Below, one piece after another: positions 5,375-21,240 of a stretch of DNA of 64,000 nucleotides (within the stretch, counting starts at the first letter, position 1; the number at the start of each line of letters is the position of its first letter). The translations under genes and the position numbers were made by a program. This stretch comes from Myxococcota bacterium (GTDB taxonomy: Bacteria; Myxococcota; B64-G9): positions 310,001 through 374,000 of the forward strand of contig JAKLGA010000005.1 of the NCBI GenBank assembly GCA_022710975.1. The letters are read 5' to 3'. Below the pieces are notes generated by a model. The model saw only the letters and a program-made list of their open reading frames with translations, was not told the origin of the DNA and searched no databases.

Positions 5375-6705
5375 GCGCCGGCCTCCGGGGTCGGACCGCC
5401 CAGCGGCAGCTCGAGCACCAGCTCCCCCTCGCCGCCGCTCGCGCGCAGCTCGAGCCCGCCGCCGTGGAGCTGGGCCACGCGCCGCGCCAACCCCAGCCCC
5501 ATGTGGATCCCGGGCGCGGCGCTCGCCTGCCGCCCGAAGTCCGTGAACAGGTCGGCCACCTGCTCGGGCGCGGGCGGAGGCGCGCCGAGGCGCACGCGCA
5601 GCTGGACCCGCGCCGGGCCGAGCGCCTCGACCTCGATCACCTCCCCCCCCACCTCCAGCATGGCCGCCAGGCTGCGCACCAGGCGGGGGACGTCGGCGAC
5701 GATCTCCTCGAGCCCCGCCGGCGCGCGGAGCGACAGCGGCCTACGCCGGAAGGCCGGCCCGAGCTCCTGCACGGCGGCCACCAGGCTGTCCAGGCGGACC
5801 GGCACCGGGTGGAGCAGGACCCGGCCGGCCTCGAGCTGGGAGGTCCACAGGATGTCGTTGATGAGCAGCAGCAGCCGCTCGCCCTCGTCACGGATGATCG
5901 TCAGGGCCTCACGCGCGCGCTCCCCCAGGCCCGGCCCGCGCAGCAGCAGGTCCGAGTAGCCCAGGATCGAGTTCAGCGGCGTGCGCAGCTCGTGGCTGAC
6001 GTTGCGCAGGAAGTGCGCCCGCAGCCGCTCGGCCTGCTCGACCTTCTCGGCGTAGCACGCGAGCCGCCCCAGCTCCTCCTCCAGCCGGGCGGCCAGGCGG
6101 TTGAAGGCGGCGGCGAGCTTGCCGGTCTCGTGGGGTGAATGGACCGGCAGCCGGCCGATGCGCGGCTCGTGCCCGTCGCGGGCCAGCTCGTCCAGGCGCT
6201 GCACCAGCCCGAGGGCCTCCGCGCGCAGGCTGCGGCCGGACAGGATCCCGACCCCGAGGGCGAACACCAGCGCGAGCAGCGAGACCAGCGCGCCGTCGCC
6301 GCCGAGCATGCTGCCCGCGCCCGGCGCCAGGGCCGTGGCCTGCCGGCCGTCGATCCACACCACGGCGGCGACGCCGGCGGCCGCGGAGGCCAGGAAGAGC
6401 ATGGCCGCGCGGCTGCGCAGGCCGAGGCGCAGGTGCCCGGGCACGCGCTCGAGGCCCGGCCGGGGTCGCCGCAGCCCGAGCAGCCAGCTCCCCAGCAGGA
6501 ACGCCCCGCCGCCCCCCAGGCACAGCCAGAACACCCAGGCGGCCGTGGCCGCGGCCTGGGCTCCGGTCAGCTCCTGGCCCTGCAGGGCGACCCGCGCCAG
6601 GCGCCCGACCTGGATGGCCGAGGCCGCGAGGCAGCCGAGCAGCAGGAGCCCGGGGGCCGCCACCAGCGCCGGCAGGCTGCCGCGCTCTGCGCCCGGGCGG
6701 CTCAT
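5371..6705 (-). CDS. Membrane histidine kinase-like protein with degenerate ATP-binding domain
   Basis: The 444-residue product starts at ATG 6705, inside the ATGA overlap with the upstream kinase. It has two hydrophobic helix pairs in the N-terminal 190 residues, a HAMP-like linker (ending FNRLAARLEEEL) and a normal dimerisation/phosphoacceptor motif (FLRNVSHELRTPLNSILGYS). The C-terminal HATPase_c domain is abnormal. Where kinases have the N box (N-x3-N-A-x-K) this protein has RSLAAMLEVGGEV, and the G1 motif (D-x-G-x-G) is replaced by RLGAPPPAPEQ. Only the G2-like GLGLARRVAQLHGG is kept. ATP binding is therefore doubtful while the phosphoacceptor His remains. It could act as a phosphotransfer partner or dimerisation partner of the intact kinase encoded just upstream. 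No response regulator is adjacent. Confidence 0.75.
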   Translation of the reverse strand: MSRPGAERGSLPALVAAPGLLLLGCLAASAIQVGRLARVALQGQELTGAQAAATAAWVFWLCLGGGGAFLLGSWLLGLRRPRPGLERVPGHLRLGLRSRAAMLFLASAAAGVAAVVWIDGRQATALAPGAGSMLGGDGALVSLLALVFALGVGILSGRSLRAEALGLVQRLDELARDGHEPRIGRLPVHSPHETGKLAAAFNRLAARLEEELGRLACYAEKVEQAERLRAHFLRNVSHELRTPLNSILGYSDLLLRGPGLGERAREALTIIRDEGERLLLLINDILWTSQLEAGRVLLHPVPVRLDSLVAAVQELGPAFRRRPLSLRAPAGLEEIVADVPRLVRSLAAMLEVGGEVIEVEALGPARVQLRVRLGAPPPAPEQVADLFTDFGRQASAAPGIHMGLGLARRVAQLHGGGLELRASGGEGELVLELPLGGPTPEAGA

Positions 6706-8393
6706 GCTCCGGCCTCCCGCGCGCGCTGGGCGGGCAGCCGGAACCAGAACTCGGCCCCGCCCCCCTCCCGGTTGGTCGCCCCGATCGAGCCGCCGTGCAG
6801 CTCGACGATCCGCCGCGCGATGGCGAGCCCGAGCCCCGAGCCGCGCCGCTCCGGATCGGTCAGGCCGGAGTGGAGCTGCTCGAACTCCCCGAACAGCCGC
6901 GCCAGCCCGTCCGCTGGCAGGCCGGGTCCGCGGTCGCCCACCCGCACCTCGACGCCGCCCTCGTCCAGCGACCGCAGGCTGACGTCCACGCGCGCGCCGC
7001 GCGAGTACTTGAGCGCGTTGCCCAGCAGGTTGATGAGCACCTGGCGCAGCCGCGTCTCGTCCGCCTGGAGGGGGGGCAGCGCGGGCGGCAGCTCGGCCAC
7101 CAGCTCGGCCTCGTAGCTGCGGGCCAGGCCGGTGACGGCCACCAGGGCCTCGCGCACCACCCTGGCCGGATCCACCGCGCTCAGGGCGAGAGCCATCTGG
7201 CCGCTGTCGAGCCGCGTCTGATCGACCAGCTCGTCCACCAGCCCCAGCAGGTGGTGGGCGGCGCGCACCACCGCGTGCACATCCTCTCGCTGCCCCTCGA
7301 GCAGCGCCTCGCCGGGAGCGGAGGACTCCAGCAGCAGCTCGCCGAAGCCCAGGATCGAGTGCAGCGGCGTGCGCAGATCGTGGCTGACCGCGAGCAGCAG
7401 ATCGGCCTGGCGCGCCTCGGCCTGGCGCGCCTCGGCCGCCCGCTCGCCCAGCACCCGGTGCAGGGCCTCCACCCGGCCGGCCAGCCGGTTGGTCGCCGCG
7501 CCCAGCTCCCCGATCTCGTCCAGGGAGCGCACCGGCAGACGCCGGGCGGGCTCCGCCCCCGGCGCGTCGGCCATCGCGCCCAGGCCGCTGGCCAGCACCC
7601 CCAGCTCCCGGCGCAGCGTGCCCATGGCCAGCGCGGCCAGGCCGCCCACCAGGACGACGAACAGCGGCCCACCCACCGCCAGGGCCAGGGCGCCGGAGAC
7701 GACCTCGGGCTGGAGGGCGGCCTCGGGCCCCACCTCCAGCGCCAGCCGGCGCAGGTGATCGAAGGCGGCCACGCCGGCCAGGCACCAGGCCACCGCCGCG
7801 GTGGCCGCCGCGGCCAGCACCCAGCGCTTGCGGAGATCCGGCTCCCAGGGGCGCGTGACCTCCGCGCCGCCCGCGGCCAGCAGCAGCGGCTCGAGCACCC
7901 AGCGGCCGACCAGGAAGGCCAGCAGCGCGTAGGTCAGCGCGAAGGCCAGGGACAGGATGTAGATCTCGACCACCAGCGCGGTCGGCGTCGGCAGCGCGGC
8001 CGAGCGCAGCACGGCGATGAGGGAAGCCGCCGCGCTCAGCAGCAGCAGGATCAGGATGAAGGAGTGGTAGGGGTAGCGCACCAGCCGTGCGCGCAGGCGC
8101 GCGGCCCGGGCGTCCGGCAGCCGCCCGGCCACCAGATCATCCCAGCCGCGGAGCGTCGGCCCGAGAAACAGGGCGTTGAAGGCCCAGACCACCAGGAGCA
8201 GGGTCGCCGCCACCAGGGAGTACCCGCGCACCCGCGCCGCCAGGTCCGCGGGCATCCGCACCGCGGCCGGGACCAGGGCGGCCCACAGGCCGACCAGCCC
8301 ACCCACCAGCAGGGCGTGGGCGAGCTGGAGCTGCCACAGGCGGGCCAGCGGCCGGATCGGCCGCGGCCCCCTCTTGTCCGCCGTCCCCCGCAT
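6702..8393 (-). CDS. Membrane sensor histidine kinase
   Basis: The 563-residue product starts at ATG 8393 and is the first gene of a three-gene operon. The N-terminal 270 residues hold about six hydrophobic segments, followed by a HAMP-like region (VRSLDEIGELGAATNRLAGR) and a short coiled coil. The kinase core is complete: H box (AVSHDLRTPLHSILGFGELL), N box (LRQVLINLLGNALKYS), G1 (VGDRGPGLP), F box (LFGEFEQL) and G2 (GSGLGLAIARRIVELHGG). It should autophosphorylate on the H-box His and pass the phosphate to a response regulator encoded elsewhere. No periplasmic sensor domain is obvious, so the signal may be sensed within the membrane. It is coupled by an ATGA overlap to the degenerate kinase, suggesting the two form a heteromer (inference). 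Confidence 0.85.
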   Translation of the reverse strand: MRGTADKRGPRPIRPLARLWQLQLAHALLVGGLVGLWAALVPAAVRMPADLAARVRGYSLVAATLLLVVWAFNALFLGPTLRGWDDLVAGRLPDARAARLRARLVRYPYHSFILILLLLSAAASLIAVLRSAALPTPTALVVEIYILSLAFALTYALLAFLVGRWVLEPLLLAAGGAEVTRPWEPDLRKRWVLAAAATAAVAWCLAGVAAFDHLRRLALEVGPEAALQPEVVSGALALAVGGPLFVVLVGGLAALAMGTLRRELGVLASGLGAMADAPGAEPARRLPVRSLDEIGELGAATNRLAGRVEALHRVLGERAAEARQAEARQADLLLAVSHDLRTPLHSILGFGELLLESSAPGEALLEGQREDVHAVVRAAHHLLGLVDELVDQTRLDSGQMALALSAVDPARVVREALVAVTGLARSYEAELVAELPPALPPLQADETRLRQVLINLLGNALKYSRGARVDVSLRSLDEGGVEVRVGDRGPGLPADGLARLFGEFEQLHSGLTDPERRGSGLGLAIARRIVELHGGSIGATNREGGGAEFWFRLPAQRAREAGA

Positions 8394-8399
8394 GCCTGC

Positions 8400-8428
8400 A
8401 GGGTATCGCCGCGCGAGGCGCGGCACAA
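8400..8428 (-). promoter_or_regulatory. Sigma-70-like promoter, leaderless start of the histidine kinase operon
   Basis: Minus-strand TTGTGC (8423-8428) and TACCCT (8400-8405) are 17 nt apart. The -10 box ends 6 nt before the ATG at 8393, the same geometry as at 1818, 39298 and 46113. Confidence 0.5.
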
Positions 8429-8455
8429 GGACCCGTCCCTGAGGGGCTCGAGGTT

Positions 8456-8752
8456 CTAGTCCAGGCGGGCGCAGTCGACCGCGGTCCAATCGGGCAGGGA
8501 GTTCTGCATCCCCACGAAGCGGCCATCCAGCAGCGTGAAGCACTCCGAGGAGCCCTGGCACTGGGAGCAGGCGGCCAGGCAGTCGTTCAGCTCCTCGTCC
8601 AGCGTGCCCTGGCACACCGTGCGACAGTCGTAGCAGGTGTCGTCCCAGAGGCCGCTCAGGTCGAGGTCGAAGCCGCAGCCCGCCTGGGTCAACCCGGCGA
8701 GCAGCGCCAGCACCAGGACGAGCGAACCAGCGGTGAAGCTCGAACTGCGCAT
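8456..8752 (-). CDS. Small Cys-rich lipoprotein
   Basis: The 98-residue product starts at ATG 8752, preceded by an AGGTGG ribosome-binding site. A longer in-frame start at 8887 is rejected because it would put about 45 charged residues before the signal peptide. The N-terminus is a lipoprotein-type signal (Arg2, then a Leu/Val/Ala core ending LTQAGC). The mature chain is short, acidic and holds many Cys (for example CYDCRTVCQ and CSQCQGSSEC), which implies disulphides outside the cytoplasm. No family is recognised. It lies downstream of the M1-peptidase gene on the same strand with a 172-nt gap that contains a hairpin, so it probably has its own promoter. Confidence 0.65.
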   Translation of the reverse strand: MRSSSFTAGSLVLVLALLAGLTQAGCGFDLDLSGLWDDTCYDCRTVCQGTLDEELNDCLAACSQCQGSSECFTLLDGRFVGMQNSLPDWTAVDCARLD

Positions 8753-8879
8753 TCCACCTACCTCGACGGGGATCGAAGCAACGCACATGCCGCTCCGGGG
8801 GAGCCACCGCAACCCCCCGTGACGACGTGGAGATCGAGGAGCGCCGCCCAGGGGCAGCCCCCGCGTGCCGGGGCCGTCT

Positions 8880-8897
8880 CCTGACACGGATGTCAGG
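8880..8897 (-). terminator. Perfect 7-bp hairpin after the M1-peptidase gene
   Basis: The arms CCTGACA and TGTCAGG enclose a 4-nt loop, 28 nt beyond the peptidase stop codon. There is no T-run, so intrinsic termination is uncertain; it may stabilise the mRNA end or assist Rho. Confidence 0.3.
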
Positions 8898-8924: not shown

Positions 8925-10676
8925 TCAGGGCAGGGGGAGGGAGAAGGAGTGGGTGGCGGACACGAGCTGGAAGGTGTCCTGGGAGGACCGCCCCGCCTGC
9001 TCGGCCCGGAGCACGAGCGGCGCCCGGAAGTACTGGACCGGCGCCGCGGCCCACCCCCGGCGCTGCTCGAGCTGGATCTGCAGCTCGGCGCCGAGCGCCT
9101 GGTGCTGCTCGGCGAGCTCGAGCAGGCCGAGCCCCTGCAACCACTGGGAGTGGAACCAGCCCAGGTCGCTGCCCGCCAGGCCGTCCACCAGGGCGGTGAA
9201 GTCCTCGGAGGCGAAGGGCGTGTCCCGGTGCAGCTCCCGGAGCGTGCGCAGGCCCCCGGCCACGGCCTGCGGGCCGGCCACGTCCTCCAGCATGCGCAGC
9301 ACCCAGGCGCCCTTGACGTAGGTGATCCTGGGATCCACGGCCACGCCCGGCGCGGGCACCAGGGGCTGCTCGGGCTGGCCCAGGCGGTACAGGCCGAGCA
9401 GCGGCTCCGCCTCCCACAGCCACAGCCAGTCGGCCACCTCGGCGCCGTGCCGCTCGCCCGCGGCGGCCAGGGCCGCGAAGTCCGCGGTGCCCTCGACGAG
9501 CCACAGGTCGCGCGCCTGGGCCGCCATGCTGCCCGACCACCACTGGTGGCAGAGCTCGTGGGCCAGGTAGAAGTCGCGGCGCGGGAAGGAGCCCGAGCCG
9601 TCGTCGTCCCAGGTGTAGTTCGGCACCAGGATCATGCCCGCGGCCGAGAGCCCGCTGGAGAAGCGCTCGTCCACCCCCACCAGGCGGATGGTGCTGACGA
9701 AAGGCTCGGCGAACATCGCGGTCAGGCTCTGGCACAGCGCCGCGACCACCGGCCCGTAGCTGGCGGGCGCGATCGGGTAGCCGTCGATGCTGGTGCCCGG
9801 GATGGCGTACAGCTCGAGGGACACCGGGCCGCAGGCGGCCTCGACCCGCTCGTAGGCGGCGAGGGCGAGCGGCACCCCGCCGCGGCGGGAGCGCTGGAGG
9901 GTCCAGGTCTCGGTGCGGGTGCCGTCGGGGTTGTCGACCGCCGCCCCGCGGGTGCCGGCCATGACCAGGGTGCGATCGGCCGGGAAGGTCACCCGGAAGG
10001 TCCAGCCCGTCCCGTAGGTGGTGCCCAGCGGCTCGGGGAAGTAAGCGTAGCCGTAGGTGAAGTAGGTCGAGGCCGGGCCCAGGAGGTTCGCCAGCACCCG
10101 CCCGCCGCCCTCCTCGAAGGCGTCCAGGTAGTGCTCGATCTCGCCGTCGTGCCACAGCACCTCGAGGGTCCAGGGCTGGCCCGCGGGCACCGGGCTGGCC
10201 GGGGTCACGGTCAGCACGCCGTCGGCGTAGGTGAAGGTGGCGGCGGGGTCCGCGGCGTGGACCGCGTCCACGGCCTGGGCGTCGAGGGCCAGCGCGAGGC
10301 TGGAGAGCTCGGTGCCCACCGCGCCGAGGGAGAGCACGGCCCGGCCCGACAGGTTGCGCTCGGCCGGCCGCAGGGTGAGCTCGACCTCGGCGGCGGTCAG
10401 CGCCGGCGCGGGCCACACGTCGCGGGGCTGTCGGTCGGCGGCGGAACCGGCGCGGTCCCGGGCATGGTCGAGGCAGAAGGCGCGGGGCCCCTCGCGGCCC
10501 CAGGCCGGCCCGCCGAACAGGGCCTGCTGGCCCGGGTCCGGGGCCGGGAGGTCGAGGCGCAGCAGGCGGTGGCCGGGATCGACGATCACCTCGAGCCCGC
10601 CGCTCCCGGCCCCGTCGCCGCAGGCGGCCGCTCCGATCGCCAGCACCGAGATCACCAGGCGCGCAATGCTTCTCAT
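8925..10676 (-). CDS. M1-family (gluzincin) metallopeptidase, putative lipoprotein
   Basis: The 583-residue product starts at ATG 10676 with a signal peptide ending in AAACGDG, probably a lipoprotein anchor. The N-terminal half is a beta-rich aminopeptidase-N-like domain. The zinc motif HELCHQWW is at about residue 373, and the third ligand Glu lies in WLVEGTADF about 20 residues later, the H-E-x2-H-x18-E pattern of M1 peptidases. The canonical GAMEN exopeptidase loop is not visible; the region about 25 residues upstream of the zinc motif reads MILVPNYTWDDD. Specificity may therefore differ from classical aminopeptidases. The gene starts only 8 nt after the stop of the signal-peptidase-like/GNAT gene, so it may be co-transcribed with the peptide cassette, although its high GC content matches the host genome rather than the cassette. 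Confidence 0.75.
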   Translation of the reverse strand: MRSIARLVISVLAIGAAACGDGAGSGGLEVIVDPGHRLLRLDLPAPDPGQQALFGGPAWGREGPRAFCLDHARDRAGSAADRQPRDVWPAPALTAAEVELTLRPAERNLSGRAVLSLGAVGTELSSLALALDAQAVDAVHAADPAATFTYADGVLTVTPASPVPAGQPWTLEVLWHDGEIEHYLDAFEEGGGRVLANLLGPASTYFTYGYAYFPEPLGTTYGTGWTFRVTFPADRTLVMAGTRGAAVDNPDGTRTETWTLQRSRRGGVPLALAAYERVEAACGPVSLELYAIPGTSIDGYPIAPASYGPVVAALCQSLTAMFAEPFVSTIRLVGVDERFSSGLSAAGMILVPNYTWDDDGSGSFPRRDFYLAHELCHQWWSGSMAAQARDLWLVEGTADFAALAAAGERHGAEVADWLWLWEAEPLLGLYRLGQPEQPLVPAPGVAVDPRITYVKGAWVLRMLEDVAGPQAVAGGLRTLRELHRDTPFASEDFTALVDGLAGSDLGWFHSQWLQGLGLLELAEQHQALGAELQIQLEQRRGWAAAPVQYFRAPLVLRAEQAGRSSQDTFQLVSATHSFSLPLP

Positions 10677-10684
10677 GCCTCACC

Positions 10685-11689
10685 CTAACCCTTCAGGCGC
10701 TTGACCAGCCAGTGGTCCGCCTCCCGCAGCCCCGCCGGCCGCTCCCACGGGGCCGACTCGAAGAAGCCCCGGGAGCGGAACAGGCCCAGGGAGCGCTCAT
10801 CAACTTCCGGGACCAAGGCTACCACTCCGGTCCACTGGTCCTCGCTGGCGACCGCAACTGCGCGTTCTAGAAGGCTACGTCCCAATCCCATGCCGCGCCA
10901 ACCGCGCTTGACGTGTAGCGAATGAACGAGCCCAAGCGTTCCCGCGCTGACGAGGATCATGCGACCGAGATCAGGGAACCGCTTGCCACCGATCAGGATC
11001 ATCCGGAGGAGCTCATCTTTTGCGGATTGTTCAATGCTCTCGATTCCGAACGGATTGAACTGGCCACTGACTGACAGAGCTTCCGCCAGCACGCGCGCCT
11101 GGTTGCGGACGACGTCCAGAACCGGATCACCGAGCACGAGCCGTCCAATGCTCTGGCCAAACCCACGGAAGGATCCCATCGAGAAAACATCAACCTCGAA
11201 CCTGCGCGTCAAGTACTCAGACCGGATCAGCACCCGCTTTCCTCGGAACGCCAACCCCGACCAGATGCTCGCAAGATCGCGGGACGAAGGGACCTCCAAC
11301 TGAATGGTCCATCCCTCTCTTTCGACCGCAATGACTCGTCCAAGGACTGCAGGAAGAGGGATGGGGCCGTCGATGGTCGTGGCACTGTCGCCCCGGCCGA
11401 AGAGTTGACCATCAACGACTCGTACTACCCGATGTGCAACTATCCGGTCACCTACGGAATACAGTGCAATCATTCCGCGCTTCAGCTCTGTTGGCTTGGA
11501 ATCCACGATCAGGCGATCGCCTGGAAGAATCCATGGGCTCATACAACGGCCGATCATGATGCAACGTTGGAGGCCCTTTTCGCACGGCACTCCACCGAGC
11601 AGCAGAACGCCGGTTGTCTTACTCCCAACGGAAATGAAATCACTCCGCGCAGACAAGACCTTTTGCCTCCGCGCATCTCCCTCACTCAC
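10685..11689 (-). CDS. Signal-peptidase-like (S24/S26) domain fused to a GNAT acetyltransferase
   Basis: I place the start at GTG 11689, overlapping the radical SAM stop by 8 nt (334 residues); an in-frame ATG at 11737 lies deeper in the upstream gene. Residues about 35-125 resemble S26 signal peptidases: KGLQRCIMIGRCMSPWILPGD matches the G-x-S-M-x-P-x(3)-GD motif, but the nucleophile position is Cys49 instead of Ser. A His-Arg-Val-Val motif at 86-89 matches the His of archaeal/ER-type enzymes. The C-terminal 80 residues are a GNAT domain, with the acetyl-CoA loop in RGWRGMGLGRSLLERA. Such S26-like proteins are known companions of HPrK-like kinases and PqqD in RiPP clusters. The likely job is leader cleavage and/or N-acetylation of the peptide encoded at 13503-13682 (inference). 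The gene is low in GC, like its two upstream neighbours. Confidence 0.65.
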   Translation of the reverse strand: MSEGDARRQKVLSARSDFISVGSKTTGVLLLGGVPCEKGLQRCIMIGRCMSPWILPGDRLIVDSKPTELKRGMIALYSVGDRIVAHRVVRVVDGQLFGRGDSATTIDGPIPLPAVLGRVIAVEREGWTIQLEVPSSRDLASIWSGLAFRGKRVLIRSEYLTRRFEVDVFSMGSFRGFGQSIGRLVLGDPVLDVVRNQARVLAEALSVSGQFNPFGIESIEQSAKDELLRMILIGGKRFPDLGRMILVSAGTLGLVHSLHVKRGWRGMGLGRSLLERAVAVASEDQWTGVVALVPEVDERSLGLFRSRGFFESAPWERPAGLREADHWLVKRLKG

Positions 11690-12695
11690 AGCATGGCTCA
11701 ACGCTACGCGTGTGCTCGAAAAGCATGACCCTGGCAACGATTTCCTTCTTCAGCGCCATGTCAACTCCTAACCGATCCGCAACCTTACGACAAATCTCCT
11801 GGTCCTTCAGCCAGCCAAGGCAAAAGCCACACTTCGTTTCCTGATCGGGACGCCTGCTGATGCCCACACGGCGAAGAAACCCCAGTGGGCCAAACACGAA
11901 CAATCCAGCCAACAGAAAACTCCGCCGATAGCGATCAATCAACCTGTCGATGGGCTCTTCCCTGACTGTCCCCACATCCAGCCAGGTTCCTTTCGCCTGG
12001 AACATCAAAGTCGAGCAGCAAGCCATGAAACGGCCATCAGGAAGCACTAGGGGGAGGAGAACGGTACCACAATCCCGCATGGTAGATGGCCCCCGCTGAT
12101 GATCTGCAGGCAAGCCGCGTCCTGTGCCTATCGTCTCGAGATTCTCCCACCCTGGTCGAACTCGGACACTGCTCAGATCTGGGTGGCTAGAGACTCGCGC
12201 CCACTTCTTCCTGGCGAACCTGCCCGTACCCTTGAGACTCACCTCCATGCCAAGTTGGACTGCCTCCCTGAGTAGCCTAATGGCTTCCTGATCAGAAAGT
12301 GCTGGCCGGTGATACTCGTCAAGGCTGAGGGAGAAAATCCTCAAGCCCAGTCGAAATGCTGTGCCGAGCAACTTCCTGGCCTTCTGCCAATCTCGCGACC
12401 ACAGTCCATTCGTCACGATGGCGGCAATTCGGCCATGCGCATCAATACGCGATAAGACATCGAGCAAGCGCTTGGGCTCAAGGAACGGCTCGCCCCCAGT
12501 AAGACTTACAAGGCTCACTTCATCCGGAAGATGTGCCAAAACAGAATGCACCACTTCTGGTTCGTAGGCATCTCTTTGGCGTATCCTACGCGGGAGAAAG
12601 CAGTGCAGGCAATGAGCGTCGCATTTCCAACTTAGCGCCAAGGAAAGGACACGACAACGTAGAATTGGGATCTCAGCTATCACGTGATCAGCCAT
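11682..12695 (-). CDS. Radical SAM protein with SPASM-like C-terminus (peptide maturase candidate)
   Basis: The 337-residue product starts at ATG 12695, overlapping the kinase-like gene by 8 nt. Near the N-terminus Cys25-x3-Cys29-x2-Cys32 (in SWKCDAHCLHC) is the radical SAM cluster motif, followed by the SAM-binding SLTGGEPFLEP motif and the VTNGLWS strand. The C-terminal region carries further Cys in SPASM-like spacing (DCGTVLLPLVLPDGR then ACCS, and KCGFCLGW then EIC, ending EPCC), which could hold an auxiliary iron-sulphur cluster. SPASM-type enzymes typically modify ribosomal peptides by forming thioether or C-C bonds or epimerising residues. The protein is too short to carry its own peptide-recognition domain; the PqqD protein at 20755 could supply it. 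Substrate assignment to the 59-residue peptide is inferred from operon position. Confidence 0.7.
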   Translation of the reverse strand: MADHVIAEIPILRCRVLSLALSWKCDAHCLHCFLPRRIRQRDAYEPEVVHSVLAHLPDEVSLVSLTGGEPFLEPKRLLDVLSRIDAHGRIAAIVTNGLWSRDWQKARKLLGTAFRLGLRIFSLSLDEYHRPALSDQEAIRLLREAVQLGMEVSLKGTGRFARKKWARVSSHPDLSSVRVRPGWENLETIGTGRGLPADHQRGPSTMRDCGTVLLPLVLPDGRFMACCSTLMFQAKGTWLDVGTVREEPIDRLIDRYRRSFLLAGLFVFGPLGFLRRVGISRRPDQETKCGFCLGWLKDQEICRKVADRLGVDMALKKEIVARVMLFEHTRSVEPCCE

Positions 12696-13458
12696 GTCCG
12701 ACTTCCTCGACCAACTTGGTTACATCGTCAAGCCTGCGGAACTGGAGCCTGAAAACCCGCCCAAGACCGATCCAATGTAGAATTGTCGCGAGAGCAACAG
12801 ATCTCTGGCTGGCAAAAACCTCAGGCAACACGGTTTGGAGTGCAAGTGCACCAACTGCAGCATCTAAGGACATTCTATCAATCCTGGCGAACCCACCCTT
12901 CTCAAGGACGAATAGACCTCCCAGGCGACCTCCATTCTGATTACCAGTCCGACCGGCATTATCGAACTGAGGCACGCTGAAGACTTCAACAGATTGTCTT
13001 ATACTTCTGACAGCAATGCGATCGTCATTCACACGCGCAAGCCCACTGGCATTCCTCAAAATGGTAGATTTTCCAGCGCCCGAAGGACCCACAAAAACAT
13101 ATGCCAGTCCATCTTTAAGCCCACAAGACGCGTGCAGCAATAGCCCACGCCTCGCGATTAGCGCCCACACGATCCCGTATCCGATTCCATCGACTAGGGA
13201 CCTCTCGCTCTCCTCATCAATTCCAACCACGACTCGATGCAATCCCCAACCGAGCAACAACGGCTCTGGGGAAATGGACTTCCGAGGACGATCCTCTGAA
13301 ACTCTATTATTGCTCACCAGATCAATGTGCATATACGCGCGTTGAACGCCAACTGTCCGAAAGCCACTCAGAAGCCTTACCAGCGCGCGGGAGGGCCTCG
13401 CCTCGGATTCAACCAGAAAGCAGAGGCCTCCAGCGGTGAAGTAGATGCGATGCCGCAT
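12688..13458 (-). CDS. HPr-kinase-like (HprK-related) P-loop protein
   Basis: The 256-residue product starts at ATG 13458, 44 nt after the small peptide gene. It has the C-terminal HprK fold: a LLLHAS strand, Walker A GPSGAGKST at residues 124-132, and a conserved NDD at 144-146 that in HprK lies near the active site. The N-terminal 100 residues do not match the HprK/P regulatory domain, so this is an HprK-related kinase rather than the carbon-regulation enzyme. Relatives in lasso-peptide and other RiPP clusters phosphorylate Ser residues of the precursor peptide. The neighbouring peptide contains several Ser and Thr that could be targets (inference). It is co-directional and overlaps the radical SAM gene by 8 nt. 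GC is about 52 % in the lines counted, far below flanking genes. Confidence 0.65.
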   Translation of the reverse strand: MRHRIYFTAGGLCFLVESEARPSRALVRLLSGFRTVGVQRAYMHIDLVSNNRVSEDRPRKSISPEPLLLGWGLHRVVVGIDEESERSLVDGIGYGIVWALIARRGLLLHASCGLKDGLAYVFVGPSGAGKSTILRNASGLARVNDDRIAVRSIRQSVEVFSVPQFDNAGRTGNQNGGRLGGLFVLEKGGFARIDRMSLDAAVGALALQTVLPEVFASQRSVALATILHWIGLGRVFRLQFRRLDDVTKLVEEVGHG

Positions 13459-13502
13459 AACAAGAGCACAGAGGAGCGATTCAGTAGCGGGCTAAAGGCG
13501 GA

Positions 13503-13682
13503 CTAGTTGTTCGTACGGCGCGGCCCATCGCGAAATGGTCCGTACCCATCGCCCACCACACCTCCCGAAACGGGGACTTCGCTAGCACCACTGATGGTGT
13601 TCAGCAGAAACTTTACCAGTTTCGATGTGACAGAAGGCTTCAAATAGGTCTTCCGGTTCCTAGGCTGCTGAATTTTTGTCAT
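13503..13682 (-). CDS. 59-residue candidate RiPP precursor peptide
   Basis: The ORF starts at ATG 13682 with a strong GGAGGA ribosome-binding site in the 18-nt gap after the FG-GAP gene, and ends at TAG 13503. The N-terminal part is basic (Arg8, Arg10, Lys11) and carries Tyr13-x2-Pro16-x-Val18, resembling the Y-x2-P-x-L leader motif that PqqD-type RRE domains recognise in lasso and related precursors. A Leu/Val/Lys helix follows (residues 19-30). The C-terminal part is a Gly/Ser-rich candidate core: Ser-Gly-Ala-Ser at 31-34, Gly-Gly at 40-41, then GDGYGPFRDGP and a basic end RRTNN. It has no Cys. It is followed by HprK-like, radical SAM and S26-like/GNAT genes, the expected surroundings of a precursor. 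Function as a precursor is inferred from motif and context. Confidence 0.65.
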   Translation of the reverse strand: MTKIQQPRNRKTYLKPSVTSKLVKFLLNTISGASEVPVSGGVVGDGYGPFRDGPRRTNN

Positions 13683-13700
13683 GGGATTCCTCCAAACAAA

Positions 13701-16700
13701 TCAGTAGCGAACTACCAGTTGGCCGCTACTATTGGCGCCTACTGCCAGGTCAGGCAGTGAATCACCGTTGTAGTCACCGACCGAAAGGTCCACACCAAAA
13801 TAAGATCCGTTGGCCCCGGAAAGCACACTGCTCGGCAAGCTATCAAAGAAAGGCGAACCACCAGCGGCTGTTCGATTATTCATAAACAGGAAGGCGCGAT
13901 GCCCGCCGGAGGAATTACATCCCACCTGCAGATCGGGCCAACCATCCATGTTGAGGTCCGCGGCATCGAAAGCGATACCAAACCAGATATTTTCTCCCCA
14001 GGATAGGCGTCTTGCGAAAACAGGGTTGATTGCTACGGCTGGATCACCCGCCACCACATGACCCGGTAGCAGGTAGACTTGGTTAGCGTAGGCGCTTGAT
14101 ACAACTAGATCCAGAATCCCGTCACCAGTGACGTCCATTCCTCCGATGGCAAACTGTCCAAATCCGCCATTGTCGATGACCGCACCGTAGGTGATCAGGT
14201 CCACACGGTGGCTCGCGTTGCCCGGGCTCACGTCGCCCACGATGCTACTGATGTTTGCGCCGTCAAAGGTGTAGGTCTCATTCACACGCGAGGCGCTGAT
14301 GGCAACGTCGTCGAATCCGTCTCCATCCATGTCACCCAGGCTCGTGTTGCCGTAGCGGGATCCCAGACGGTCATCGGCATCGATGCCGAGGAACTTGATC
14401 TCGGCCTCGGCCGCTGGCACGAACCGGACACCGGACTCGAGGCCGGTCCGCACGTTGGTGTCGTCGAACCAGTAGTAAAGCGTGGGATGGGCAGGGTCCA
14501 CGGCTGAACGCGGCCGGCCATAGAAGATGTAGCCACGGCCATTCAGGTCGAGCCGGTTGGCTGAGACGAACAGGTCACCATATCCGTCCCCATTGACGTC
14601 ACCCATGGCGGCGTAGCTGAGCCCGAACCGGCCAGTGGTCGCTGTGTTTCCGCGAATCTCCAAGTCTGGTCCCGTCGGCGGGTTGGCAGCAAGGTCGGCG
14701 CGGCCGAAGTAGATCGATAGCCTGCCACGGTAAGACTGGAAACCATTTCCCCCGATGGCGAAGTCGTCCACTCCATCACCATCGATGTCGCCGATCTTCT
14801 GCACGAAGAACGCGAACGATTCACCAGCGGTCCCATGAAGCAGCGGGATGGGAGTGGCCGGAAGGTTCCATGTGCTCAGATCAGTCGCACCGAGGAATAG
14901 CCAGGCCGCACCGTAGTTGGTGCTGTAGGTGGCGGCGCCGACCACGAGATCGTCGCGCCCATCGCCATTGACGTCGCCGACGTTCCGCAGAGTGTAACCA
15001 AAGTTGACTGTTGCAGGGCCCGTGTAGGCCACTTCGTTCCAGTTGTTCCCCACCAGCACGTCCCCGTGGATCGGGCTCTGGTTGCCCACCTCGTCCACGG
15101 CGCGGACCGCCACGTGGTAGTCGTTCAGCGGCGGGAGCACCAGGTTCGCGCCCACACTCGCCCCGCTGTACACCTGGTACACCGGATTCGGCCAGGTGGT
15201 GCCGGTGTAGAACCAGCGCGCCTCGTCGTTGATGGCCGCGCGCGACCAGCGCACGTTGTAGGCCGCCGGCGTGCCCGTGGCGCCGTCGTCCCCCACCGCC
15301 GCCCAGCCCACCACCACGTCCGCGTGGCGGCTGGCGGCCGGATCCGCCCCCAGCGCGGCCGTGGCCGCCAGCATGGCCGGGGCCTGCACGTCCGCCGTGA
15401 CCGACAGGTCGAGGGTCGCCTCGTTGCCCGCGTAGTCCCGCACCCGCGCCACCAGCGCGTGCACCTGGTCGTGCGCGAGCTGGGTGTTCGCGTACACCAC
15501 GTTCTCCGGGCTCCCGTACACCAGGCTCGGCCCCTGGATGGGCGTGCCGCCCCGCTCCAGGGTCAGGGTGGCCTCGAACCCGTTCGCGATCTGGTCGTCG
15601 GTCACCGTGAGCTCGAAGTCCATGTCGCAGCCGCCGCCGGCCACCTTGTCGCGCACGTAGCTCGCCGGCGCCGGGGTGTTGGGATCGTCCAGGTGCAGGT
15701 TGCCGCTGCTCGCCACGCAGAACACGTCGGCCGCGCCCGGGCGCACCCGGGTCAGGGTCGGCAGCACCATGTCGACCAGCTCGACCGTCACCAGGTCCGT
15801 GGTGATGTGCCCGGCCTGGTCGTCGATCTCGGCCGTGAGCTCCACGTTGGCCGCGCCCTGGGCGAGCGTGACCCCGCTCCAGGTGGCGCAGCCCGCGCCG
15901 TCGGGCGCGACACCCGCGCCGAAGGGCGTCCCGCCCACGAGCAGCCGCAGGCGGCAGCCCGGGCAGGTCAGGTTGGTGCAGGCCGCGCTGCAGGCCGTCA
16001 GGTTCTGCTGCAGCCCGTTGCCGGCGTTGCCGTCGAGGTCGTCCGCGGCGTTCCACAGCTCCGTGCTGCTCAGCCCCTGGAAGCTGAGGTCGCAGCCGGC
16101 GATGGTCACCGACACGTTCAGGATGGTGTCGCTGGCCGGGTTGCCGGCCGGGTCGCGGGTGGTCACGGTGAGCGTCTGCCCGGCCCCCGGGGAGAGGTTG
16201 CAGTTGAAGGAGGTGGTGCCGCTGCCGTCCACCGGCACCTGGCAGCGCTGGCCGCCCACGCTGGAGACGACCGTGATGGTCTGGCTCGCGTCCGTGCCGC
16301 TGGTGGCGCACACGAAGGGGACCTGCTGCTGGACGAAGCTCGCGTCGTCCAGCGGCTGGGAGCAGGCGATGGTCGGCGCCAGGGTGTCCACCAGGACCGG
16401 CCGGCTCGCCTGCACGGCCGGGTTGCCGCAGGCGTCGCTCACGTCCGCGCTGAGGGTGGTGTTGCCCTGCCCCAGGCTCTCCACCCGGCTGGCCACGCCG
16501 CCCGAGACCGTGGCCGTGGCCCCGGCCATGGGCCCGAAGGTGACCACCTGGCCGTCCTCGGCGTCGGTGGACACGGCCAGGCTGAGCTCGAGGTCGTCGG
16601 TGGCCGGATCCAGGACGTCGTCGGCCTTGACCAGGGTGCTCTTGCTCGGGCTGGTCAGCAGCAGGCCGGGCGCGGTGGTGTCGACCGACAGCAGCACCCA

Positions 16701-19700
16701 CGCCTCGGGGTCGTCGATGATCGGCGCAGCGGCCCGGATGTTCGGGTTGTCGAGCGCGTCGCTCAGCACCACGGTGAGGTCGTAGTCGCCCTCGGCCAGG
16801 CTGACCGAGAAGGTGGCCAGCCCGCCGCTGACCGTGGTGGTGCCCAGCGAGCTGCCGGGCGGCCAGTTGCGGTACAGGGTGGCGGTGCGGTCCTGGACCC
16901 CGGTGCCCTGGTCGGACACCACGGCCTGGAGCTGCAGCCCGCCCTCGGCCTGGTTCAGGCAGCCGTCGGCGTTCGCGTCCGAGAGGACCGTCAGCGTGTC
17001 CACCGTGGGCGGCAGGCTGTCCACGACCAAGGCCACCCCATTCGAGAACGTGCCCTGCCCCGGCAGGTCGGCCGGGGCGGCGAAGGCATACAGGGTGATG
17101 TCTCCCTCGGGGATGTCCACGCAGGAGAGGATGGTGGTCCCGTCCGCCGTGGCCACCGTGCCCTGCCACAGCGAGCGGCCGAACCCCGCCGCGGTGCAGC
17201 GATCCGGCGAGCCCGGGACGGGCAGGGGGCAGGGGCCCTCGCACACGCACAGCTCCAGGAGGTCCCCCGCCACCACCCCGTGGGTCAGGATATCGACCTG
17301 GGTCTGCAGCCCGTCCGGCGGGCACATGTCCGAGAAGATGTTCAGGTTGCCGGCGACAGGTCGGGTGATGATCACCTCGGGCGCGGACAGGTTGATGAAC
17401 ACGTCCGACAGATCCGAGTCCGGCGGGTTCACCGGGTCGCTGATGGTGGCCAGGATGGACACGTTGGCCTGGATCGGACCGGCAGGCATCAAGGTCACCG
17501 CCGGGAAGACATAGATGTTGGTCTGGCCCGCGGCCAGGGTGTGCGTGTCGGCGACGATCCCATCCACCTGCAGCTCCACCACGTCGCCCACCTGGGCGTT
17601 GGTGAACTGGCAGCGCACGTTGTACTGGAACCCGGACGCGGCCGACACGTCCGAGGCTGCGCCCAGGATGGAGCCGTTGCTCGGGCTGGTGATGACCACC
17701 AGCGGCGCCTGCCGATCGACCAGGATGTTCCGCGCCGGAGACTCGGCGCAGTGGCCCGCGCAGTCGCAGGCCTCGGCCGTGACCGCGTGGGCGCGATCGG
17801 CCAGGGTGACGACCGGTCGAGCGACGCCGCCCGAGAAGGTCGGGCTGTCGATCAGCTCCTCGACGTCATTGACGGCCACAGGTCGTCCGTCCTGGACGTC
17901 TGCGGTGACCTCGAGCTGCATCTGGAAGCCGGCCCTGACCGGATCGAAGTCCACCGCGGCGGCGCCCACGCTCAGGTCCGCGGCCGGGTCGGTGATGGCC
18001 ACCGTGGGTGTGGTGAGATCCACGATCACCCGCACCGGCAGCGAGGTGCCCACCGTGCCGAGCTGGCCCGGCGCGCTGGCCCAGAGCTGGTAGTCGCCCT
18101 CCCCGCCGAGGTCCACGGTCAGCGCGCAGCTCCCGTCCACCTGCAATTGCGCGACCTGCCCATCCGCCGCGGTGCACTCGGGCACCGGCTGCGGGTCGTA
18201 CGCCCGCACGCACACCAGGCAGTCGCCGGTGGCGTTCGCGGTCTGGGCGGCCAGCTGGTAGCTCGCGAGCTCGCCGCAGGTGTTGTCCGCGGGCGCGGTG
18301 ATCACCACGCTGGGCGCGTTGGGCTCCCCGACGAACAGCAGCAGCTCCTCGAGGCTGGTGTCGCAGGAGTTGGTCGCCTCGACCTCCAGGCTCACCTGCC
18401 CGTTGGGGAGCTGGACCCCGGCGAAGGTGGCCACGCTGCCGGCCCAGGTGGGGCTGGTGTAGCTCACGCTGACCGCGCCCTGCACCACCCGCAGCTCGAG
18501 GCTGCCCAGCCCGGCGACGAAGTCCAGCACCTCCACCTGCACGTCGTAGGCGGCGCCGTCCGGGACCTCCACGGGCTCCGGCAGGGAGCCGTCGGGATCG
18601 AGGAAGGTGATCACCGGCCCGCCCGCGCAGGGGAAGGCGGTCACGGTGATGGCGTCCGTGGCCGGGTTGCCGTGCGCGTCGGTGAGGGACGCCGTCAGCA
18701 GCGTGTCCCCGCTGAAGAGGGTCACCGGGAGGGTGAAGCTGCCGTCCGCCGCGACCGTGCCGGTGAAGGCCTGGGTGTTGACCCCGTCGCTGGCGGTCAC
18801 GGTCACGAGCTGGCCGACCGCGTCGGTCGAGCCGCCCGAGACCTGGATGTCCAGGTGCCCGAACACCGCCCGGTCCGGCGGATCGAGGATCTCCACCGTG
18901 GGCGCCAGGGTGTCCACGGTCACGGTGACCATGGGCGAGACCTGCTGGGTCTGGAGCTGGCACCACAGGCCCTTGTCCTCGCCGTCCAGGAGCGTCACCT
19001 CACCGCTCCAGCCGTTGGCCTGGACCGGCAGCCCCGCCAGGGTGTCCTGGCCGCCGATGTGCAGATCGAAGGTGAAGCCGTCGGGCACGTTGGCCGTGAC
19101 CACATGGACGGTGGTCTGCAGGCCGTCCGCGGGGTCGGCGTTCTGGTCGTCGGCCAGGAGCAGCACCGCGCCGTCGGCGGGCGCCACGATCTGGCAGGTG
19201 AGCTGCTCGGTGAGCACCGGGACCTGGTGCACCGCGCTCATGCCCTCGTCCTCGCAGGTGCTGCGGGCCTTGACCTGGACGGCGTAGGTGCGCGACTGCA
19301 GCAGGTCGAGGTACTGGAACTCGAACGCGCCGCCGGGCTGGAACAGGGCCGGCTGCAGGGGCGCGCCGTCCTCCTCCACCACCACGCCGTCGAGCTCGAG
19401 CCACAGGCCGTCGGGCGAGGTCACGCCTTGCGAGGTGCCGCGGACCGCGATCTGGATGCCCATGGCGGCCGGGTCGCGATCGCTGGTGTCCGTCAGGGTG
19501 ACGCCCTCGGCGGGGGCCTCGAGCGCGACCGCCACGCTGGTGGCGCACACCCGGTACACGTTCGTCAGCGAGCGGCCCTCGGGGCCACCCGGGGCCGCCA
19601 CCGTGGCGAACGCCGCGTGGGTGCCGTCCGCGAGCGTCACCACGAACTCGGCCCGCCCGCCCGCGAGCACGCCCTGGGACAGCTCGCCGCCCACGTCCAG

Positions 19701-20621
19701 CGTCACCGCGGCGCCGTCCGGGCAGGCGAAGGCGCCGTCCGCGTCGGTCTCCACCTCCGCGCGGATCTGCAGCCCCTCGGCGACGGGGTCCTGATCGTCC
19801 GCGGCGCGCAGCACGCTGCCGTCCGGCGGCAGCAGGCGCACGGCGCAGCCGCCCGTGTCCACGATCACCGAGATCTCCGCGCCCACCGGGTTGCCGTCGG
19901 GATCGGCCACCTCGGCCCGCAGCAGGTTGAGGCCCTCGCCGAGCTCCACCGCGGTGAAGCTGGCGCTGGCCTGGCGGAGCGCCGTCTCCAGGGGCAGCGC
20001 CGCGCCGACCACCAGCGACAGCAGGGCGCCGTCGTCGATGCCCTTGCAGGTGAGCACCACGTCGTGCTGGAAGCCGGGCGCGCCCGAGGCGTCCTCGGCC
20101 GCGACCAGCGTGGCGCCGTCCTGGGGCACGTCGAACCGGCAGGCCGGCAGGCCGAGCTGGACCAGCACGTCCTTGCAGCCCTCGACTGGGTCCACCAGAC
20201 GCGCGGAGCAGGAGCCCTCGCCCTCGGCCAGCCAGGTCACCTCGACCCCGCCGGAGGCGCACACCCGGTTGCTGCCCTCGAGGAAGGTCTGCATGCCGAG
20301 ATCGACGTGCCCGTCGCCCGTGGCCGCGTCGTCCAGGACCACCCGGCCCTCGACCTGCTCGCCGGGGACCTGGCTGTTGGTGTACAGCAGCCGCGTCCCG
20401 TCGGGGATGCAGTGCGTCCGCAGGCGCACGTCCACCTGGATGCCCAGCTCGTTGGCGTCCTGGTCGTGGAACTCGGTGAGCGCCCCGCCGGTCGGGCTCA
20501 GGAAGGTGATGGCCGGCTCGCAGTCGCAGGTGGGTGCCGCGGAGTCATCGCAGGCCGGCGCCCACATCACCAGCCCCAGGAGCCACAGATTTCCCACCAT
20601 CAAGCGCGCGAGCGAACGCAT
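13701..20621 (-). CDS. Giant secreted repeat protein with C-terminal FG-GAP propeller
   Basis: The 2306-residue product starts at ATG 20621 with a GGGGAGGTAG ribosome-binding site. The N-terminus is a lipoprotein-type signal ending in APACDDS. Residues about 30-1850 form many Ig/Big-like beta-sandwich repeats, each with a V-x-I-x-x-P-x-D-G start and DDQDPVAEGLQIRAEV-like segments, often with a Cys pair. The last 440 residues carry seven FG-GAP/VCBS calcium-loop motifs (such as DVNGDGRDDLVVGA, DIDGDGVDDFAIGG, DMDGDGFDDVAISA), enough for a seven-bladed propeller. It is probably surface-exposed and adhesive. The DNA composition changes near 15,050: the Ig-like part is about 75 % GC, the propeller part about 50-60 %, matching the peptide cassette downstream. 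The peptide gene starts 18 nt after its stop, so the giant protein and the cassette share a transcript. Confidence 0.85.
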   Translation of the reverse strand: MRSLARLMVGNLWLLGLVMWAPACDDSAAPTCDCEPAITFLSPTGGALTEFHDQDANELGIQVDVRLRTHCIPDGTRLLYTNSQVPGEQVEGRVVLDDAATGDGHVDLGMQTFLEGSNRVCASGGVEVTWLAEGEGSCSARLVDPVEGCKDVLVQLGLPACRFDVPQDGATLVAAEDASGAPGFQHDVVLTCKGIDDGALLSLVVGAALPLETALRQASASFTAVELGEGLNLLRAEVADPDGNPVGAEISVIVDTGGCAVRLLPPDGSVLRAADDQDPVAEGLQIRAEVETDADGAFACPDGAAVTLDVGGELSQGVLAGGRAEFVVTLADGTHAAFATVAAPGGPEGRSLTNVYRVCATSVAVALEAPAEGVTLTDTSDRDPAAMGIQIAVRGTSQGVTSPDGLWLELDGVVVEEDGAPLQPALFQPGGAFEFQYLDLLQSRTYAVQVKARSTCEDEGMSAVHQVPVLTEQLTCQIVAPADGAVLLLADDQNADPADGLQTTVHVVTANVPDGFTFDLHIGGQDTLAGLPVQANGWSGEVTLLDGEDKGLWCQLQTQQVSPMVTVTVDTLAPTVEILDPPDRAVFGHLDIQVSGGSTDAVGQLVTVTASDGVNTQAFTGTVAADGSFTLPVTLFSGDTLLTASLTDAHGNPATDAITVTAFPCAGGPVITFLDPDGSLPEPVEVPDGAAYDVQVEVLDFVAGLGSLELRVVQGAVSVSYTSPTWAGSVATFAGVQLPNGQVSLEVEATNSCDTSLEELLLFVGEPNAPSVVITAPADNTCGELASYQLAAQTANATGDCLVCVRAYDPQPVPECTAADGQVAQLQVDGSCALTVDLGGEGDYQLWASAPGQLGTVGTSLPVRVIVDLTTPTVAITDPAADLSVGAAAVDFDPVRAGFQMQLEVTADVQDGRPVAVNDVEELIDSPTFSGGVARPVVTLADRAHAVTAEACDCAGHCAESPARNILVDRQAPLVVITSPSNGSILGAASDVSAASGFQYNVRCQFTNAQVGDVVELQVDGIVADTHTLAAGQTNIYVFPAVTLMPAGPIQANVSILATISDPVNPPDSDLSDVFINLSAPEVIITRPVAGNLNIFSDMCPPDGLQTQVDILTHGVVAGDLLELCVCEGPCPLPVPGSPDRCTAAGFGRSLWQGTVATADGTTILSCVDIPEGDITLYAFAAPADLPGQGTFSNGVALVVDSLPPTVDTLTVLSDANADGCLNQAEGGLQLQAVVSDQGTGVQDRTATLYRNWPPGSSLGTTTVSGGLATFSVSLAEGDYDLTVVLSDALDNPNIRAAAPIIDDPEAWVLLSVDTTAPGLLLTSPSKSTLVKADDVLDPATDDLELSLAVSTDAEDGQVVTFGPMAGATATVSGGVASRVESLGQGNTTLSADVSDACGNPAVQASRPVLVDTLAPTIACSQPLDDASFVQQQVPFVCATSGTDASQTITVVSSVGGQRCQVPVDGSGTTSFNCNLSPGAGQTLTVTTRDPAGNPASDTILNVSVTIAGCDLSFQGLSSTELWNAADDLDGNAGNGLQQNLTACSAACTNLTCPGCRLRLLVGGTPFGAGVAPDGAGCATWSGVTLAQGAANVELTAEIDDQAGHITTDLVTVELVDMVLPTLTRVRPGAADVFCVASSGNLHLDDPNTPAPASYVRDKVAGGGCDMDFELTVTDDQIANGFEATLTLERGGTPIQGPSLVYGSPENVVYANTQLAHDQVHALVARVRDYAGNEATLDLSVTADVQAPAMLAATAALGADPAASRHADVVVGWAAVGDDGATGTPAAYNVRWSRAAINDEARWFYTGTTWPNPVYQVYSGASVGANLVLPPLNDYHVAVRAVDEVGNQSPIHGDVLVGNNWNEVAYTGPATVNFGYTLRNVGDVNGDGRDDLVVGAATYSTNYGAAWLFLGATDLSTWNLPATPIPLLHGTAGESFAFFVQKIGDIDGDGVDDFAIGGNGFQSYRGRLSIYFGRADLAANPPTGPDLEIRGNTATTGRFGLSYAAMGDVNGDGYGDLFVSANRLDLNGRGYIFYGRPRSAVDPAHPTLYYWFDDTNVRTGLESGVRFVPAAEAEIKFLGIDADDRLGSRYGNTSLGDMDGDGFDDVAISASRVNETYTFDGANISSIVGDVSPGNASHRVDLITYGAVIDNGGFGQFAIGGMDVTGDGILDLVVSSAYANQVYLLPGHVVAGDPAVAINPVFARRLSWGENIWFGIAFDAADLNMDGWPDLQVGCNSSGGHRAFLFMNNRTAAGGSPFFDSLPSSVLSGANGSYFGVDLSVGDYNGDSLPDLAVGANSSGQLVVRY

Positions 20622-20754: not shown

Positions 20755-21240
20755 TCAGTTCGTCTCGACCAGGCCCTTCTTGGCGAGACACTCCACGAAC
20801 CACAGGGTGTCGGACTCGGCCCGGGAGCCCTCGACCTCGAACTCCGCGGCCAGGGTGGAGGCCACGTCGCGGATGGTGCGCTTCCCGTCCAGCAGCTGCC
20901 AGATGCGGGTGCCCACCTCGTTGAGCGAGTGCATCATGCTGTCGGCCGGGGTGACGATCACCGCCTCGCCCTCGATCATGCGCCAGGCCACGTCCTTGCG
21001 CAGGTTGATCCGGCTGTCGAGCTTGTACGCCAGCCGCACCGGGGCCTTGGCGGGCTTCGCCGGCTTGCCGGCGGCCTTGCCCGCCCCCTTGCCGGCGGGC
21101 TTGCCTGGCCTGGCCGGCCTGGCAGCCTTGGCCGGGGCCTTGGCCGGGGCCTTGGCCGGAGCCTTGGCGGTCTTGGGGGCAGGCTTGTTCGACTTGGCGC
21201 CGGCCTTGCTCGCGGGGACGGTCTTCTTCTTGGTCGCCAT
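20755..21240 (-). CDS. PqqD-family protein (RRE-like) with Lys/Ala/Pro-rich tail
   Basis: The 161-residue product starts at ATG 21240, preceded by GAGGA. Residues 2-67 are a histone-H1-like run of Lys, Ala and Pro with K-A-P-A repeats. Residues 68-161 form a PqqD winged-helix domain (typical length about 90): three beta strands (VAWRMIEGEAVIV), then ADSMMHSLNEVGTRIWQLLDG and the TIRDVASTL helix. PqqD domains are the RRE modules that bind leader peptides and present them to radical SAM or cyclase enzymes. It sits one gene upstream of a peptide with a suitable leader motif and a radical SAM protein without its own RRE, so it may serve them. Against this, it has its own promoter and host-like GC. 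The basic tail could bind DNA, RNA or acidic protein and is unusual for the family. Confidence 0.75.
   Translation of the reverse strand: MATKKKTVPASKAGAKSNKPAPKTAKAPAKAPAKAPAKAARPARPGKPAGKGAGKAAGKPAKPAKAPVRLAYKLDSRINLRKDVAWRMIEGEAVIVTPADSMMHSLNEVGTRIWQLLDGKRTIRDVASTLAAEFEVEGSRAESDTLWFVECLAKKGLVETN

Follow-up and report, generated by a model that had tools for sequence, protein, structure and literature searches.

A conserved RiPP-like operon of Myxococcota encoding an HprK-like kinase, an EpeE-like radical SAM protein and an S26-type protease

Introduction

What kind of peptide pathway, if any, is encoded by a compact set of genes in a Myxococcota bacterium? We addressed this question for a stretch of 64,000 nucleotides from contig JAKLGA010000005.1 (assembly GCA_022710975.1, positions 310,001 to 374,000 of the forward strand), which is called the window below. 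The genes lie on the minus strand at 10685-13682 and encode a 59-codon peptide, an HprK/PEPCK-fold kinase, a radical S-adenosylmethionine (SAM) protein and a fusion of an S26-type protease with a GNAT acetyltransferase. An original prediction, made from the DNA letters, had read them as a candidate for an undescribed cassette for a ribosomally synthesised and post-translationally modified peptide (RiPP). We found that the operon was larger than this four-gene cassette. Genes for a RiPP recognition element (RRE), about 7 kb upstream, and for a giant FG-GAP/immunoglobulin (Ig)-repeat lipoprotein preceded it and an M1 peptidase gene followed it, all three overlooked in the prediction. We propose a linear RiPP operon in which one small peptide would undergo RRE-guided phosphorylation, radical epimerisation and cleavage, and we give this reading a probability of roughly 0.55. 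To judge from its genes, the operon resembles a pathway of the Linear Polyphosphorylated Peptide (LPP) type joined to an EpeE-like enzyme, and it reaches the full definition of neither family.

Results

The four open reading frames (ORFs) of the prediction were all located on the minus strand, and the claimed 8-nucleotide overlap was present at two junctions. The kinase and radical SAM genes overlapped at 12688-12695. The radical SAM and S26-GNAT genes overlapped at 11682-11689, given a GTG start for the latter. The GTG at 11689 is the likely start, and the TTG at 11737 is only the start of the longest S26-GNAT ORF (10685-11737).

Relatives were searched for in the genome's own family first and then in 195 genomes of the phylum. 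In seven other genomes the kinase gene was likewise followed by the radical SAM gene and, beyond it, by an S26 gene. G004, G005, G007 and G008 belong to the family of the window genome (G000), and the outgroups G093, G094 and G189 belong to two other families, G093 and G094 being of the same genus. The eight genomes below are this set, from three families of Myxococcota. Gene order varied in G189, where the M1 gene preceded the S26 gene. The RiPP reading was said to fail if the enzymes occurred without an adjacent short ORF or if the peptide was not conserved. A short ORF of 41-56 codons stood directly before the kinase gene in all seven other genomes, and the peptide was conserved. In two further genomes (G006 and G002), contigs broke off within the FG-GAP gene and again within the S26 or M1 gene, and the middle of the operon looks unassembled rather than absent. 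A kinase-only scan of GTDB contigs gave no matches.

The precursor gene (13503..13682, minus strand), with a GGAGG ribosome-binding site upstream, encoded the 59-residue peptide MTKIQQPRNRKTYLKPSVTSKLVKFLLNTISGASEVPVSGGVVGDGYGPFRDGPRRTNN and was conserved at the same place in the eight genomes. The predicted Y-x2-P-x-V motif was present as Y13-L-K-P16-S-V18, followed by S20, the candidate phosphosite S31 and the tail YGPFRDGPRR. All eight peptides carried a leader Y-x2-P-x-[VIL] and a tail [YFS]-G-[PAG]-x-[RKQ]-x2-P, which was [YF]-G-P-x-R-x2-P-R-R within the family. When the residues of each peptide were shuffled, leader and tail motifs occurred in order in no more than 1 of 10,000 trials, compared with 8/8 real peptides. 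Between the same-genus peptides of G093 and G094, the proportion of nonsynonymous differences (pN, 0.16) was below that of synonymous differences (pS, 0.49) over 40 codons, a pattern consistent with purifying selection. A Ser or Thr was located exactly 18 residues after the leader Tyr (Tyr+18) in 5/5 family peptides, and a common Ser/Thr column appeared in 1.1% of cases after the family segments were shuffled. The peptide matched no family in Pfam or NCBIfam.

The kinase (256 residues; 12688..13458, minus strand) was assigned by structure. Its AlphaFold2 model had a predicted local distance difference test score (pLDDT) of 86.5, and all 46 Foldseek matches below E 1e-3 were PEPCK and then HprK/P; Pfam gave no HprK match. 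H109, the P-loop GPSGAGKST and D146-D147 were kept in most of the eight kinases. An RRE fused within the kinase was considered and rejected, the N-terminus of the model being strand-strand-helix.

The fusion of a signal-peptidase-like domain with an acetyltransferase, as predicted, was found at 10685..11689 (minus strand; longest ORF from 11737). It consisted of a SipW/SEC11-like S26 protease domain (SEC11, 3e-6) and a GNAT domain (Pfam, 1e-5). With residues counted from 11737, His102 and Asp117 were invariant in 8/8 S26 domains. The nucleophile position (Cys65 in the window) was Cys in G000, G004, G007, G093 and G094 and Ser in G005, G008 and G189. GNAT was absent in G093 and G094, and its motif was lost in G004. 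The predicted N-acetylation was therefore not conserved, and it would not be a core step of the pathway.

The radical SAM protein (337 residues; 11682..12695, minus strand) had been labelled SPASM-like, and this label did not hold. Pfam reported no SPASM domain in it, and the protein appeared as an EpeE/YydG-like epimerase homologue of no recognised SPASM type. YydG was the best NCBIfam model for the window protein (1.1e-21, 77.6 bits; cut-off 300), and it was also the best profile for G004, G093 and G189. Because the scores fell below this cut-off, we regarded the protein as a homologue of EpeE/YydG and not as an equivalog. A family profile searched against the PDB gave EpeE/YydG (8ai1-6) at 7e-25, and the next match was at 8e-5. 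Foldseek with the AlphaFold2 model (pLDDT 85) returned EpeE for all of the top nine matches, with a template modelling (TM) score of 0.70, followed by BlsE at 0.52. C25-x3-C29-x2-C32, C209, C226-C227 and C289-x2-C292 were invariant in the alignment of the eight proteins, and the CC pair aligned with the CC of EpeE. Cys223 of EpeE is the hydrogen-atom donor (PMC5682303), and C223A mutants are named in EpeE PDB titles. If a 25-residue tag on the 344-residue crystal construct is assumed, C223 would be the second Cys of this pair. The hydrogen-donor cysteine (C227) and the auxiliary-cluster cysteines of EpeE thus appear to be retained. In G007, the radical SAM frame (L046 7078-8991) ran into a PRMT6-like arginine methyltransferase domain (7e-29), and the tail of the peptide was Arg-rich (RYGPFRESPRREP). 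This fusion and this tail suggested that the peptide is the substrate of the radical SAM-PRMT protein.

The expected partner of the leader motif would be the PqqD-type RRE (161 residues; 20755..21240, minus strand; PF05402, 2.5e-17), the gene of which lies upstream of the FG-GAP gene. A search for PqqD domains covered twelve genomes. In seven of the eight genomes (the window, G004, G007, G008, G093, G094 and G189), the RRE gene shared a contig with the FG-GAP gene and lay directly upstream of it. In G005 there was a contig break, and a separate contig carried the RRE gene with the 5' end of the FG-GAP gene. The PqqD proteins of the family (window 20755-21240; L210 4901-5518) had long Lys/Ala/Pro-rich N-terminal tails, which are unusual for an RRE.

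As in RiPPs generally, a short encoded precursor with a conserved leader adjoined genes for modifying enzymes. At the gene level, the locus also held the RRE gene and YxxP-type leader of RRE-dependent RiPPs. The predicted RiPP-like character of the HprK-like kinase, radical SAM protein and S26-like protease was retained, and these enzymes would act on one conserved peptide.

Discussion

The order of events in the proposed operon may be as follows. The PqqD-type RRE would bind the Y-x2-P-x-[VIL] leader and present the precursor. The HprK-like kinase would phosphorylate a Ser/Thr where the core begins, which is S31 in the window peptide, 18 residues past the leader Tyr. The EpeE-like enzyme would remove a hydrogen from a C-alpha of the core, probably within or beside the [YF]-G-P-x-R-x2-P tail, and C227 would return a hydrogen to give a D-residue. 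Epimerisation is the reaction to which the fold and the cysteines point. The S26-type protease, with a Cys or Ser nucleophile and a His-Asp pair, would remove the leader just before the phosphosite, at a predicted cut N28|T29. The GNAT domain and the fused arginine methyltransferase of G007 would be lineage-specific extras. S31 and N28|T29 were proposed by analogy with LPP (LppA-K-B-S-D-N of Bacillota, 2026), because S3 of LPP is phosphorylated 18 residues after the leader Tyr (PMC13381572). What the genomes show is which genes occur, how they are arranged and conserved, and their folds and catalytic residues; the reactions and their sequence, the cut site, export and role are deduced from these.

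Several observations weigh against this proposal. In the three outgroup peptides the Ser/Thr was located at Tyr+19 and not at Tyr+18. The Tyr+18 residue of G005 was Thr, which LppK does not accept, and a Ser/Thr at Tyr+7 was conserved in 8/8 peptides as a rival phosphosite. The kinase of G189 had Glu replacing Asp. No Val/Ile position was conserved in the cores, whereas EpeE epimerises Val/Ile. YydG scores were 77.6 and 86 bits in two family members and lower in the outgroups, against the cut-off of 300. No transporter was found linked to the operon on inspection of the flanking ORFs. G003 and G001 kept the RRE gene although they lack the cassette, so that it may have another job, and because of this the link between RRE and peptide stays a proposed one.

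The conserved part of the core was the tail and not aliphatic residues, and radical SAM enzymes of similar fold catalyse many reactions. The operon might therefore encode a RiPP on which the radical SAM protein carries out other tail chemistry, such as a cross-link or an oxidation at Tyr, Arg or Pro of YGPxRxxPRR. The distance of the protein from the YydG equivalog cut-off also favours such chemistry. However, EpeE was the closest protein in both fold and sequence by a clear margin, and the position of the hydrogen-donor Cys and the auxiliary-cluster Cys pattern were invariant in 8/8. In addition, Pfam recognised no SPASM domain. We considered this alternative somewhat unlikely.

The likeness to LPP raised a second alternative, in which phosphorylation and S26 cleavage define an LPP-family phosphopeptide pathway and the radical step is a secondary addition. 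The LPP leader is cut by the signal peptidase I (SpI)-type protease LppS, which needs the RRE and has the catalytic residues S29, H68 and D93, and the authors called LPPs restricted to Bacillota (PMC13381572). Four hallmarks of LPP were present here: the YxxPx[VIL] leader, a discrete RRE, an HprK-like kinase and a protease resembling the SpI-type, archaeal-type signal-peptidase leader protease. The Tyr+18 Ser/Thr was also shared, in 5/8 peptides. Nevertheless, the LPP precursor motif YxxPxVLxHQxIxFETxxS was represented only by YxxPx[VIL] and this Ser/Thr, and its VLxHQ/FET part was absent. An LPP-type NTP-transferase and an MsbA-like transporter were not recognised among the ORFs flanking the cassette by inspection. 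The LPP protease is Ser-His-Asp, whereas here His and Asp were invariant and the nucleophile was Cys in five proteins and Ser in three. A radical SAM gene was present in 8/8 members, unlike LPP, for which none is described (PMC13381572). An LPP-family pathway with a secondary radical step was considered quite unlikely.

Other known systems were related to parts of the proposed operon. Epipeptides (EpeX/EpeE, formerly YydF/YydG) share the EpeE-like radical SAM fold with its hydrogen-donor and auxiliary-cluster cysteines, but the YydG/EpeE equivalog cut-off was not reached here. Among the neighbours we recognised no EpeX-like precursor, EpeP or EpeAB, and the peptide had no NCBIfam match. To our knowledge, the epipeptide operon epeXEPAB holds no RRE, kinase or S26 gene. 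The SynChlorMet cassette (ScmA-F, NCBIfam) similarly groups short peptides with genes of the PqqD-like, HprK-like and radical SAM kinds. Its models scored far below their cut-offs (ScmC 18.2/125, ScmD 36.9/100 and ScmF 23.5/400 bits), and we know of no S26 protease in its definition. Phosphorylated lasso peptides of the paeninodin type have an HprK-like kinase, an RRE and a [Y/W]xxP leader. Their macrolactam cyclase and B2 protease had no counterpart here; as predicted, no asparagine-synthetase-like lasso cyclase or B2 protease was recognised in the neighbouring ORFs by inspection.

The claim that the cassette was undescribed was thus divided. The kinase, S26 protease, RRE and YxxP leader correspond to the LPP family (PMC13381572, 2026), and novelty would now lie in the addition of an EpeE-like enzyme and a giant surface lipoprotein to this set. 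No description of an LPP-like set joined to an EpeE-like enzyme was found in open-access PMC text, which is weak evidence of novelty. If the proposal is true, HprK-type phosphorylation and signal-peptidase leader removal are joined with EpeE-type radical epimerisation, RiPP chemistries known separately, and both are extended to Myxococcota. It would also bring an RRE into an EpeE-like system, provide an example of an S26 protease family that switches between Ser and Cys nucleophiles, and connect a RiPP with a giant lipoprotein of the cell surface. S31, N28|T29, C227 and C65 are exact residues for testing.

The giant lipoprotein (2306 residues; 13701..20621, minus strand; lipobox WAPAC|DD by eye) offered a third alternative. 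Its gene ended 18 nucleotides before the peptide gene and was directly before it in 8/8 genomes of three families, with protein identities of 31-56% by segment within the family. The small ORF might be a partner or tag of the FG-GAP lipoprotein, and the enzymes might act on that surface protein or link the peptide to it. The segment running from the FG-GAP gene through the M1 gene was missing as one piece in G003 and so behaved as a unit, and the operon had no transporter; both points would fit this idea. However, the logic of leader, RRE and protease fits stand-alone RiPPs. The FG-GAP protein would leave the cytoplasm by the lipoprotein route, whereas the kinase, radical SAM protein and RRE look cytoplasmic. 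The tag reading was considered very unlikely. The linkage to the lipoprotein and the M1 peptidase suggests that the RiPP of the proposed operon has a role associated with the envelope, presumably after export. A bolder version is a phosphorylated peptide with a D-residue, matured by a Cys-nucleophile S26 protease, that serves the co-encoded giant FG-GAP lipoprotein as its ligand, tag or subunit. This would be a cell-surface RiPP class of Myxococcota and not a free antibiotic, and we regarded it as unlikely. A chance small ORF beside unrelated enzymes, with no peptide pathway, was hardly credible, since its lack of a Pfam or NCBIfam family match was set against the conservation of its place and motifs across the eight genomes, shuffle frequencies of 1e-4 or less and a pN lower than pS.

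Low-GC tract

The original prediction had taken the low guanine-cytosine (GC) content as a sign of transfer. The low GC was confirmed (0.53 in the peptide, 0.53 in the kinase and 0.55 in the radical SAM gene). GC at third codon positions (GC3) was 0.52-0.60 in these three genes, compared with 0.96-0.98 for the RRE gene and the M1 gene. The low-GC tract extended over about 10900..14900, with gradual, approximate boundaries. It began within the 3' end of the FG-GAP gene, where GC3 fell stepwise from 0.99 to 0.54, and ended within the GNAT part. Because both edges fell inside these genes, the tract did not coincide with the cassette. The case for transfer was weak, since the operon occupied a shared position across several of the family's genera and the tract started in a vertically shared gene. 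Recent horizontal gain was rejected as the default, the genes from peptide to S26 being located behind the FG-GAP gene in G004, G005, G007 and G008. Segment identities singled out no sampled relative as a clearly closer donor. Exchange with a relative of lower GC is conceivable.

Neighbouring and related loci

The M1-family metallopeptidase (583 residues; 8925..10676, minus strand; Peptidase_M1, 1.1e-9), a lipoprotein by eye, started 8 nucleotides past the S26-GNAT stop. In four family members its gene came after the S26 gene, with an intervening opposite-strand ORF in G004, and it adjoined the cassette in 5/8 genomes including G189. In G005, just the first ~65 M1 codons were on the contig. 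A small Cys-rich lipoprotein ORF (8456..8887, minus strand; likely start MRSSSF) flanked the unit. It was kept in G003 without the unit, where the RRE gene was directly followed by this gene (L210 5273-6040), which is found elsewhere after M1.

Distant EpeE-like proteins were also followed in a contig scan. Besides the contigs of G008 and G007, only L139 had kinase and S26 proteins near. In this Clostridia contig (L139 8615-12695), genes for an RRE, a radical SAM protein, a short ORF (MKKKYVVPES...), an HprK-like protein and an S26 protein lay beside an ABC transporter. The radical SAM protein was of a different kind from the EpeE-like one of the cassette, and the locus appears to be LPP-like except for its radical SAM gene. 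Because L139 carries these genes together, the set of kinase, S26 and radical SAM genes was not unique to this family of Myxococcota.

A second, different RiPP-like cassette was observed in the window genome (L048, contig C15, 5918-11005). It contained PqqD, radical SAM, a peptide ending in YEPPVIRHVEIAIQEAIMSICKGGTSAGPFGPGCGCRGGGS, HprK-like, S26 and TonB receptor genes. Its relatives L049, L052, L053, L056 and L058 had in common ALM[SG]ICKGG and GP-rich cores. The L048-L058 genes were considered as members of the window cassette and rejected, as they belong to this different one. Downstream of the Cys-rich lipoprotein gene, two overlapping histidine-kinase-like ORFs were present on the minus strand of the window at 5371-8459.

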